From contig NZ_CP009512.1 in NCBI RefSeq assembly GCF_000970205.1, forward strand, positions 558,001-622,000: a stretch of DNA of 64,000 bases, read 5' to 3'. Position 1 is the stretch's first letter, and every line of letters starts with the position of its first letter. Made by a program: the position numbers and the translations under genes. Shown piece by piece: positions 11,524 to 46,210 of the stretch. Origin of the DNA: Methanosarcina mazei S-6 (GTDB lineage: Archaea > Halobacteriota > Methanosarcinia > Methanosarcinales > Methanosarcinaceae). The notes beneath the pieces are model-generated. The model saw only the letters and a program-made list of their open reading frames with translations. It had not been told where the DNA came from and made no database searches.

Positions 11524-12957
11524 TCAGAGTATAGTTAACGGCGCTCCTATGAGCGCCGCACGAATACCCTCTAAAACAGGTAAACCGTTCTTTTTTCCTG
11601 TAGAAATGTACGCCCTAATTCTGCAGAAAGCTTGCGCTCCCATTGCTTTTCTGAAAGTTCCCGATATTTTCTGCTGTAGTTTCATCATCCTGATATCTCT
11701 TTCTGCCTGATTATTATCAAATGGAACTTTCAAATCTGTCAGGAATCTCAGAATCTTTTCTTTGTGTTCTATAAACCTATCCAGCAGATTCCTTGATTTT
11801 GTTTTTGGATTTTTACCGCGTTTTCCCTGTTTTTCAGGATTTAGAGAATGCGGATTTTCTTCAAGCGCTCTAATGATAATTGCATCAAACCTTTCTTCCA
11901 ATGCTTTAATTTGCTCAAAATCAGGTTCTCTTAATTGCTCTTTACACTCATCAGTGTATTTCTTCATCTCAGTGAGCAGTTCATTCATCTCTTTAGCCCA
12001 TGTCTGTTTATAGTTCTCTTCAATTCCTGTAAGTTCTCTCTGTAAATGAGCGTTACACAGAGCATGATCACAATCATAAACGTTGTAAGGTTTCCATCCA
12101 TCATGAACTGCTACTCCCTTAAACTTCGGAAGAATTCCCATAGCATCTATTGCTTCTGCTCCTCTTTTTGTATGAGCAAAATAACATGTGTATTTTTCAT
12201 TAGAAGCTACATGAAGCCAGTGTCTTTTTCCTTCAATCTTCATACCAGTTTCATCAAAATTGATTACAGGCGAGGCTAATAACTTCTCTCTAATAACGTT
12301 TTCAAATTCCTCTAAATTCTGGAAACATTCTCTTTCTGCTCTAATTATCGTAGCAGGACAGATTTTTATTCCCATAATGTCTTCAAATAACTCAGAAATT
12401 CTATCATAAGGAACAAACTGGTAATTTTTACAGTAAATAGCTGAAGCTAAAATATTAGGGCCATACTGAACCGGATATTTCACTGATTCGGGAAAAACGG
12501 CTTTATTCAACTTTCCACAACAAGGACAGGTTTTAATCTGACTTTTATGTTCTGTAACAATTAGATTTACGGGAGGAATGTCAAAGACCTGTCTTCTCTC
12601 ATAAGCTTCAACTTCAACATTCTCAAGGGTAGATCCGCATTCTTTGCAGCAGGTCAAAGAATGTTCTATTACCTACTCAGGATGATCAACCATATCAAGA
12701 GTCGTGCCTGGATGACCTTCCTGACCTCCAGGTTTCTTCCCGCTTGGTTTACGCAGACTCTTGGGATTAGGTTTCTCTTTGACAAAATAATCAGTAGAAG
12801 GAGGTCGACTGCTGTTACGACTGTTTTGATTTAAACGAGATTCTAAGGCTACAAGTCTTTCAGTGAGTTCTTTAACTTGAGATTCTAAACTCTCAATGTA
12901 AGCTACAATAATTTCAGGATTTGAAGCACAGTAAGAAAGAATCTCATCACGTTTCAT
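11524..12957 (-). CDS. IS66 transposase with in-frame UAG (probable pyrrolysine)
   Basis: One continuous frame of 477 residues if the TAG at 12673-12675 (codon 95) is read as an amino acid. Part 1 (residues 1-94) is the IS66 N-terminal coiled-coil region with the NQNSRNSSRPPS and GGQEGHPG motifs. After the TAG come the zinc-finger domain (CCKECG...TCPCCG) and the DDE domain (NFDETGMKI, VHDGW, NNQAERDIR). The residues around the TAG, VDHPE-TAG-VIEHSL, match the linker P-x-x-VxEH of other IS66 transposases, where a sense codon occupies this site. The stop at 11524 lies inside the left terminal repeat. Translation as two pieces is the alternative; the second would need a TTG start at 12657. Confidence 0.88.
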
Positions 12958-43017: not shown

Positions 43018-43133
43018 CAGGTAATTTACGGTAATTTAAGGTTAATTTAAGGTTAATTTAAGGTTAATTTAAGTTTATTTAAGTTTATTTAAGTTTATTT
43101 AAGGTCAATTTAAGTTTATTTAAGTTTATTTTT
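43018..43133. repeat. 10-11 bp tandem array between proB and proC
   Basis: About eleven units of two kinds, ggttaatttaa and gtttatttaa, in a row. The array ends 24 bp before the proC ATG, so it forms most of the proC leader or promoter; the ribosome binding site AAGGAG lies just after it. Confidence 0.9.
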
Positions 43134-43156: not shown

Positions 43157-43969
43157 ATGATAAATCGAAAAATAGGATTCATTGGGGCAGGGAAAATGGG
43201 TTCTGCTCTCATGCAGGGCATAATTAAAGCCGGAATCGTGCAGCCTGAAAATATCGGTGCAAGCGATGTATACGAGCCTTTTTTAAAAGAGCTTCAGACA
43301 AAGCTGGGGATCAGGGTATCAACCGATAATACCGTTATTGTCCGGGAGTCGGATATCCTCATTCTTGCAGTAAAGCCCCAGACGCTTGGTTCTGTACTTG
43401 AAAACCTGAAAAATGAAATTACTTCCGAAAAACTCGTAATATCAATTGCTGCAGGAGTGCCTCTTTCAACTTACGAGGGCGCTCTTCTTGAAGGCACCAG
43501 GGTTGTCCGTGTCATGCCCAATATAGCAGCAACAGTTTCGGAGGCTGCTTCGGGAATTTCCCCCGGGAAGAACGCGACCCCTGAGGATATGAAAGATGCT
43601 CTTACTATCTTTTCTGCGGTTGGTACTGCAGTTCAGGTTCCTGAATCCCTGATGGACGCAGTTACAGGTCTTTCCGGCAGTGGGCCTGCTTTCATTTTCC
43701 CTGTCATAGAGGCTATGGCTGACGGGGCTGTACTGGAAGGCATGGACAGGAAAAGCGCTCTTACCCTCGCAGCCCAGACCGTGCTCGGAGCCGCAAAAAT
43801 GGCACTTGAAACAGGCATGCACCCCGGAGAACTCAAAGATATGGTTACATCTCCTGCCGGTACCACTATTCAGGGAGTTCATGCTCTCGAGGAAGCAGGA
43901 ATCAGGGCAGCTTTTATGAATGCAGTTATAAGAGCAAGCGAACGCTCAAGAGAACTCGGGAAGAAGTAA
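43157..43969 (+). CDS. proC: Pyrroline-5-carboxylate reductase
   Basis: Protein of 270 residues performing the last proline step with NAD(P)H. The N-terminal IGFIGAGKMGSALMQGI is the Rossmann motif, and the C-terminal helical part has GLSGSGPAFIF and DMVTSPAGTTIQGVHALEEAG, the ProC signature. Third gene of the pro cluster. Followed by a 657-bp gap that contains a structured segment and then IS66 copy 2. Confidence 0.97.
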   Translation: MINRKIGFIGAGKMGSALMQGIIKAGIVQPENIGASDVYEPFLKELQTKLGIRVSTDNTVIVRESDILILAVKPQTLGSVLENLKNEITSEKLVISIAAGVPLSTYEGALLEGTRVVRVMPNIAATVSEAASGISPGKNATPEDMKDALTIFSAVGTAVQVPESLMDAVTGLSGSGPAFIFPVIEAMADGAVLEGMDRKSALTLAAQTVLGAAKMALETGMHPGELKDMVTSPAGTTIQGVHALEEAGIRAAFMNAVIRASERSRELGKK

Positions 43970-44221
43970 TAATATCGGTTTCTTCCTTTTCTTAAATCCT
44001 CTTCCATTCATCTTTAATTCCTTTTCATCCTTTTTCTTTTTTATAAGTCTTCAATGTGTAAATTTCTTAAGACAAATTTTGCTTTCTAGATAAAAATTCC
44101 TTTCTTTTCGCTTTCTGGCGTCCTTTGTGATATTTACCTCTTATTTTCTTAGTTATAGTTCATGATTATTTGTTATAAATTTGGGTAAATTTTATATATC
44201 AGTGGAATCAATATTATTTTC

Positions 44222-44560
44222 TACCTGATAAAAGCTGAGCATGCATAAATGAGCTAGCGGGGGTCATAGTTCCTGTCCCATGCCTTACTCTCGTTTATGA
44301 GATGTTCCAGTCCGGGATATCCTGTATAAGTTCTCTAAAACTGAGAATTTTTCACCTATATTGTATTCCTCGGTGAACCCGGAAAATCATGCTTAATTTG
44401 AAAATAAGAAGCGAATAAATTACGATAAATTATGGTGGAACGGGGTACTGGACCTTCTCTGTTCGCCATGAGGGGGATCTCTTATGGGGGATACGAGATT
44501 CCTCTCCAGACTCCTCTTATTCTCGCCTGAAAGATTATTCGCTACAGGCTTTTTATCTTA
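44222..44560 (+). ncRNA. Candidate long structured RNA of about 330 nt
   Basis: A TATA box tttatatat at 44191-44199 lies about 27 bp upstream, and a T-rich end ggcttttta lies at 44548-44556. Three long-range stems: CATAAATGAG 44244-44253 with CTCGTTTATG 44290-44299 (one G-U); GCGAATAA 44411-44418 with TTATTCGC 44535-44542 (perfect); GAGGGGGATCTC 44470-44481 with GAGATTCCTCTC 44495-44506 (12 pairs, two G-U). The G-U pairs exist only in the plus-strand transcript, which fixes the strand. I could not match it to 7S, RNase P or other known RNA motifs. Confidence 0.55.
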
Positions 44561-44634
44561 AAAAATAGCAGCGTATTTTATGTCATTAATAAATAAAATA
44601 ATGTTTTTAAAAAAGTAAAATAATGTGTAACTAT

Positions 44635-46092
44635 TCAGGGTATAGTTAACGGCGCTCTCTTGAGCGCCGCTATAATACCCTCCAAAACAGGTAATCCGTT
44701 CTTTCTAATTGTAGAGATGTAAGCTCTAATTCTGCAGAAAGCTTCCGCTCCTTGTATAGTTCTGAAAGTTCCTGATATTTTCTGCTGTAATTTCATCATC
44801 CTGATATCTCTTTCTGCTTGATTATTCTCAAACGGAACTTTCAAATCTGTCAGGAATCTCAGAATATTTTCTTTGTGTTCTATAAACCTATCTAGCAGAT
44901 TCCTTGCTTTTGTTTTTGGATTTTTTCCACGTTTTCCTTTCTTTTCAGGATTTAGAGATTGTGGATTTTCTTCAATTCCTTTAATTATGATAGCATCGAA
45001 CCTTTCTTCCAATGCTTTAATTTGCTCAAAATCCAGTTCTTTGACTTGATCCTTGCATTCGTCGGTATACTTTTTCATCTCAGTGAGCAATTCATTCATT
45101 TCTTTAGCCCACTGCTGTTTATAGTTCTCTTCAATTCCAGTAAGTTCTCTCTGTAAATGAGCATTACAGAGAGCATGATCACAGTCATAAACGTTGTAAG
45201 GTTTCCATCCGTCGTGAACTGCTACTCCCTTAAACTCCGGAAGAATACCCATAGCGTCTATTGCTTCTGCTCCTCTTTTTGAGTGAGGTAAATAACAGGT
45301 GTATTTCTCATTAGAAGCTACATGAAGCCAGTGTCTTTTTCCTTCAATCTTCATACCAGTTTCATCAAAATTGATTACAGGCGAGGCTAATAACTTCTCT
45401 CTAATAACGTTTTCAAATTCCTCTAAATTCTGGAAACATTCTCTTTCTGCTCTAATTATCGTAGCAGGACAGATTTTTATTCCCATTATGTCCTCAAAAA
45501 ATTCGGAAATTCTTTCATAGGGGATAAAATGGTGATTTTTACAGTAAATAGCTGAAGCTAAAATATTTGGACCATACTGAACTGGATATTTAACTGATTC
45601 AGGAAAAACAGCTTTATTTATTTTTCCACAGTAAGGGCAGGTCTTTATCTGACTTTTGTGTTCTGTAACAATCAGATTTACAGGAGGAATATCAAAGACC
45701 TGTCTTTTCTCATAGGCTTCAACTTCAACATTCTCAAGAGTATGGCCACATTCTTTGCAGCAACTCAAAGAATGTTCTATTACCTACTCAGGATGATCAA
45801 CCATTTCAAGAGTTGTTCCTGGATGACCATCTTGACCTCCAGGTTTTTTGCCACTCTTTTTACGGAGACTCTTGGGGTTAGGTTTCTCCTTGATAAAAAA
45901 ATCAGTAGAAGGAGGGCGACTGCTGTTACGACTGTTTTGGTTTAAACGAGATTCTAATACCTTTACACGTTCTTCGAGTTCAGCAATACGAATAGATTGT
46001 TCTTCTATGATAGTCTCAAGCCTCTGGATTACAGAAATTACAGCTTCAGGACCAGCGTCATAAATGATAAGAATCTCTTCACGTGTAAGCAT
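44635..46092 (-). CDS. IS66 transposase with in-frame UAG (probable pyrrolysine)
   Basis: A single frame of 485 residues when the TAG at 45784-45786 (codon 103) is read through. Residues 1-102 form the coiled-coil and SRPPS/GGQDGHPG region; after the TAG come the zinc finger (CCKECG...TCPYCG) and DDE domain (NFDETGMKI, VHDGW, NNQAERDIR). The sequence around the codon, VDHPE-TAG-VIEHSL, equals that of copy 1, although the N-terminal regions differ considerably in the two copies (residues 5-50). The UAG has therefore survived divergence of its surroundings. Two-piece translation would need a TTG start at 45768. Confidence 0.88.
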
Positions 46093-46126
46093 AATAACGA
46101 AAGGAAATAGGATTCAATTTATATGC

Positions 46127-46173
46127 AATTTTTCCTCGAAAAGAGGAAAAATTGTAGCCTTTCAAAGGCTCTA
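46127..46173 (-). promoter_or_regulatory. Hairpins in the IS leader, copy 2
   Basis: An 11-bp stem AATTTTTCCTC 46127-46137 with GAGGAAAAATT 46143-46153 and loop GAAAA, then AGCCTTT/AAAGGCT around a single C. Copy 1 has the same stem with a GAA loop closed by a further C-G pair. Located between terminal repeat and start codon. Confidence 0.6.
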
Positions 46174-46210
46174 CCTGAATAGTTACAATAATGTTTTTAT
46201 TGTACCCAAA

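Follow-up and report, generated by a model that had tools for sequence, protein, structure and literature searches.

A candidate structured small RNA behind proC in Methanosarcina mazei and its relatives in three genera

Archaeal small RNAs with comparative proof of structure are few. Jaeger et al. are said to have reported intergenic sRNAs for Methanosarcina mazei in 2009. The closest described systems are sRNA162 and sRNA154 of this organism. The sRNA162 is a 191-nt RNA with three stem loops, intergenic between MM2441 and MM2442; its variable single-stranded linker binds the target and masks the ribosome-binding site, and homologues of sRNA162 and sRNA171 are found in Methanosarcina only (PMC3510493). 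The sRNA154, of about 130 nt, lies between MM3337 and MM3338 and has a promoter with an NrpR operator (PMC3177094; PMC5867862) as well as target-binding loops, one with an anti-RBS sequence (PMC5867862). Here, a candidate RNA of M. mazei S-6 is described from the 3' side of the gene proC; in the literature searched, no paper was found connecting the proC-flanking locus with an sRNA.

The locus belongs to a 64,000-nt stretch (the window, to which all positions refer; plus strand unless marked) of a Methanosarcina genome of 4.14 Mb. Upstream of the candidate RNA is the gene for pyrroline-5-carboxylate reductase (43157-43969, +), which we take to be proC from the proBAC cluster and which is the 5' neighbour in all RNA-carrying genomes. 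Between proB and proC, AT-rich short direct repeats (GGTTAATTTAA / GTTTATTTAA) are present at 43030-43130. Downstream are an IS66 element and then a peroxiredoxin gene (-). The first-pass annotation had placed an IS66 insertion just behind the RNA, and the element is indeed there at 44627-46186 (-), with ends GTAACTATTCAGG...CCTGAATAGTTAC, a transposase frame and a flanking 8-bp target duplication (AATAATGT; 44619-44626 and 46187-46194). The transposase frame has one in-frame TAG (codon 103) with Rfam PYLIS_5 beside it at 45687-45786; since read-through of the TAG gives a single 485-aa protein, pyrrolysine insertion at this codon is likely. A second PYLIS_5 of the window lies at 12576-12675 (-). 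The downstream coding genes (IS66 transposase, peroxiredoxin) are on the opposite strand, as they are in relatives with peroxiredoxin next, and a cis-acting 5' leader or riboswitch was rejected on this ground.

The TATA box claimed for the RNA is present as an archaeal-type TTTTATATAT at 44190-44199. It occurs at the equivalent position in all full-length orthologues, and the block 44190-44209 has a mean pairwise identity of 85%. The distal promoter element TGATTATTTGTTATAAATTTGGGTAAA (44163-44189), kept in relatives, contains a BRE-like sequence 5' of the TATA box, and comparable sequence precedes the TATA box of the orthologues. The element is TTAATGATCATTTATTATAAAT-like in relatives and includes the partial palindrome AATGATCATT. 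Possibly a transcription factor binds this element at the candidate RNA promoter alone; a genome search allowing as many as 3 mismatches gave no second site like it. Across the orthologues, the putative promoter region TGATTATTTGTTATAAAT...GTAAATTTTATATATCAG has been retained. Given the usual archaeal spacing, transcription would be expected to start at about 44217-44224. Consensus scans, which are unsuited to archaea, gave sigma-70 promoters no better than chance and no terminator-like site in the T-rich end, so that the suggested terminator was not confirmed.

The plus strand of the 339-nt stretch folds at -104 kcal/mol with a z-score of -3.06 (0 of 100 shuffles were as good) vs an unremarkable -0.56 for the minus strand, in agreement with the plus-strand structured region proposed earlier. 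The whole-RNA z-score of the plus strand was negative in all 12 copies folded. The minus strand was equal or better in several of them (L023, L027, L044, and L071) and L038 was undecided, so fold energy alone is no proof of strand.

A BLAST search with the region gave matches in other Methanosarcina genomes, located directly 3' of proC. A covariance model (R1) was built from an alignment of eleven copies and covers a 94-position core with two hairpins, here named SL2 and SL3. Among 31 genomes of the genus, R1 found 11 strong copies; in a second genus, outside model building, it found three weaker copies with SL3 only, besides one at E 4e-13 in genome G076. Every R1 copy in both genera is located behind proC, and in a third genus the core lies behind proC in two genomes. 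At E <= 0.01, the refined model (R2; 3' half) identified 18 carriers from three genera in a search of all 112 genomes of the family. Each carrier has a single match, and proC is directly upstream of every one, including those in the two genera not used in building R1. The core of both models is at 44413-44509 in the window; R2 scores E 2.1e-21 there, a value that is not independent because the window copy was used in model building. Elsewhere, the model matches L065-L067 weakly (E about 0.04), and no further copy at strong score was found within the host genome. A strict core pattern searched over the family gave scattered one-mismatch matches outside Methanosarcina. In one clade (L060, L061, and L063), tandem peroxiredoxin genes with ~72-75% and ~87-88% identity to the window protein follow the RNA. 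Many Methanosarcina genomes are without the candidate RNA though proC is present, and this loss implies that the RNA is dispensable; three RNA-less genomes have an identical 100-nt proC-peroxiredoxin spacer. On the proC tree the RNA carriers include both outer genera; the common ancestor therefore probably had the RNA, which would have been inherited vertically and lost repeatedly.

The hairpin SL2 (44433-44468) pairs UGGUG-G-AACGGGG with CUCUGUU-CGCCA and has the loop UACUGGACCUU, which includes GACCUUC (44451-44457). The hairpin SL3 (44470-44506) has a G-rich loop, GGGGG at 44486-44490. Changes on both sides were observed at 6 of the 12 pairs of SL2 and at 3 of the 13 pairs of SL3, in which 95% of cells are paired and the sequence is conserved as well as the pairing. 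The MFE structure of the M. mazei core equals the consensus with a mean pair probability of 0.94, and over all copies the mean pair probabilities of the core range from 0.77 to 0.96. Over 14 copies in a model-based alignment, the paired share of cells was 92.5% vs a shuffle mean of 87.4%, and both-side changes affected 9 pairs and 22 cells vs shuffle means of 5.0 and 8.1. That alignment was fitted to the structure and is biased toward it, but the slid-partner controls still differ widely, with at most 61% of cells paired and 9 cells with both-side changes. Covariation in relatives had been set beforehand as the test of the proposal, and it is present, with compensatory changes in SL2 and SL3 well above both shuffles and slid controls. 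The locus shows the conserved secondary structure expected of an archaeal intergenic regulatory sRNA, and a promoter-like sequence is conserved in the intergenic region. The candidate is very probably the gene for a small folded RNA. Three genomes of the sister genus (L072, L073, and L074 of G063, G092, and G085) have lost the promoter, the 5' domain and SL2 and have kept SL3 right behind proC. These remnants hint that SL3 may have a separate role at the proC 3' end.

The same RNA had been drawn as one 330-nt transcript with three long-range stems. This layout gives way to one in which a variable linker joins a 5' domain to the two 3' hairpins; the conserved unit spans about 44163-44509, its middle part being non-conserved. 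The inverted repeats behind the three stems are all present (44244-44253/44290-44299, 10 nt; 44410-44418/44535-44543, 9 nt; 44299-44311/44447-44459, 13 nt), but only the 10-bp stem is generally kept, with 7-9 of 10 positions still paired in six relatives. The 9-nt repeat (1-5 of 9 paired in five of the six) and the 13-nt repeat (4-7 of 13 paired) were rejected as conserved stems. An end-closing stem (44228-44235/44549-44556) is kept among the six only in L022. The 5' domain (44233-44299) contains the G-rich GGGGGUC at 44259-44265 and has two alternative pairings, the hairpin SL1 (44233-44243 with 44279-44289) and the 10-bp stem. SL1 is favoured in L020, L021, L023, L027, and L071; M. mazei favours the 10-bp stem instead, and L064 the counterpart of this stem. 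The two are conserved but competing and cannot both form fully; because their arms are adjacent without linkers, a pseudoknot of full SL1 and 10-bp stem would be sterically unlikely. In seven clade sequences, SL1 is 90% paired vs at most 53% with slid partners and has four both-side-change cells, and the 10-bp stem is 85% paired vs at most 54% and has one both-side change. In a hand-made alignment the covariation of SL1 is weak (6 cells vs 2.7 expected, a result seen in 3.4% of shuffles). Covariation thus appears to give modest support to both pairings. The variable linker (44300-44409) has an identity of 0.29-0.54, with an inserted element in one relative (L082, read by eye). Conservation drops after SL3 and is at background level within the IS66 element. 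Insertions differ by genome, being in the linker in L082, in SL2 in L064, where SL2 is broken, and just behind SL3 in L020; the inserted sequences of L082 and L020 have GTAAAACCCCGA in common.

Searches of Rfam 15 over the candidate RNA gave no match at gathering score (best sub-threshold E 3.6 and 5.7), and those over seven related loci at a permissive threshold gave chance-level matches only. Archaeal RNase P RNA (RF00373) and archaeal SRP RNA (RF01857) had no match in the region and were rejected; their genome copies are at C1:3525322-3525682 (198.8 bits) and C1:454702-455016 (220 bits), respectively. Archaeal SRP (7S) RNA and RNase P RNA resemble the candidate in length and as archaeal structured RNAs, but they have their own loci elsewhere and neither model matches here. 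The first-pass annotation was therefore right to set the RNA apart from both, and its broader description of a structured RNA matching no known RNA is supported by the covariation, the synteny in three genera and the lack of an Rfam match here or in relatives. By structure, the candidate is a new family that no Rfam family covers; it is of a known kind of RNA.

On balance we lean towards an independently transcribed small structured RNA with its own TATA promoter, working in trans to regulate gene expression post-transcriptionally. The trans action is proposed from the example of sRNA162 and sRNA154, the two M. mazei sRNAs that have been studied. Transcription would proceed on the plus strand from the TATA promoter, with a start near 44220 and a 3' end after SL3 at about 44510-44560. 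The product would consist of the 5' domain, the free variable linker and the two 3' hairpins, of which SL3 would protect the 3' end. Target mRNAs would be contacted at their ribosome-binding sites by the SL2 loop, 5'-UGGACCUUCUC-3', through base pairing of the type reported for sRNA162 and sRNA154. This loop might itself be masked by pairing with the G-rich segments. The Shine-Dalgarno-like character of the G-rich loops and the (partly) anti-Shine-Dalgarno-like SL2 loop are possible leads to the mechanism. Complements of the SL2 loop within the window are at chance level (7 matches, which include the RNA gene itself, vs 4.7 expected). In roughly half of the copies, the GGGGGUC segment and GACCUUC of the SL2 loop are complementary over 7 nt, and loop-loop complementarity reaches 9 Watson-Crick pairs in L043 and, in two other genera, 10 nt (L071) and 11 nt (L082). 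This register is missing in several copies (such as L020, L022, L023, and L083), and shuffled loops of the same composition gave at least 7 pairs in 17% of draws, so loop-loop pairing is only suggestive. It is a doubtful proposal that an internal kissing of GGGGGUC with GACCUUC hides the target-binding loop and that a bistable 5' domain (SL1 vs the 10-bp stem) opens and closes this lock.

The main rival reading is a cis element of the proC mRNA, either a structured 3' UTR or a termination/stability element with SL3 as the 3'-end hairpin. The position always directly 3' of proC would suit such an element, as would three second-genus genomes in which SL3 alone lies a few tens of nt past the proC stop and is followed by a T-rich stretch. 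It is nevertheless fairly unlikely, since a conserved TATA promoter lies between proC and the structure, proC occurs without the structure in many relatives, and SL2 and the 5' domain would be superfluous for a plain terminator. The RNA might also act in trans by binding a protein or the ribosome without pairing to mRNA, its G-rich loops GGGGGU/GGGGGUGA mimicking a Shine-Dalgarno sequence. The loops of SL1 and SL3 can pair over 5-8 nt in most species with what we take to be the archaeal anti-SD (CACCUCCU), and SL3 is conserved in sequence besides its pairing. We consider this unlikely; G-rich loops pair easily by chance with C/U-rich sequence, and the G run of the SL3 loop is lost in L022 and L045.

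Were the locus an untranscribed remnant or a piece of a mobile element, neither a conserved promoter and co-varying hairpin arms nor a single copy per genome, with no strong-score match at other places, would be expected. Insertions in or beside the element in several genomes (the window, L082, L064, and L020) point towards such an origin, but their positions differ between genomes and we hold it to be very improbable. That the locus encodes a small protein is scarcely credible. Several species have a GGAGG-like sequence in the 5' arm of SL3 and then an AUG in the loop, but L022 would read AUG-AGU-UAA, L043 and L044 have AUU, and 1-nt indels shift the frame; indels in the core whose lengths are not divisible by three argue against a protein.

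The candidate RNA gene occurs in a genetically tractable methanogen as one copy with a defined promoter sequence, and natural deletion strains exist among close relatives. It has clear hairpins with testable loops and represents an unlisted RNA family for which an alignment and a covariance model are available. The candidate is thus a direct route to testing whether archaeal structured loops act via ribosome-binding sites. In Staphylococcus aureus, RNAIII, a 514-nt RNA that also encodes a peptide, uses anti-SD-type hairpin loops to bind ribosome-binding sites. The character of its loops is like that of the candidate and serves as a lead only, RNAIII being bacterial and no homology being claimed. 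The sRNA154 is, like the candidate, intergenic and conserved in Methanosarcina, and its anti-RBS loop (PMC3177094; PMC5867862) would have a counterpart in the SL2 loop; the motif GGTA-N6-TACC (cf. the sRNA154 promoter) was not seen by eye at the candidate locus. With sRNA162 and sRNA171, the candidate has in common an intergenic position, a single transcript of moderate length (predicted here), and stem loops with a variable linker (PMC3510493). The sRNA162 lies between MM2441 and MM2442, whereas the candidate lies behind proC. As compared by description, sRNA162 binds its target by the linker, whereas in the candidate the linker is non-conserved and the loops are conserved.
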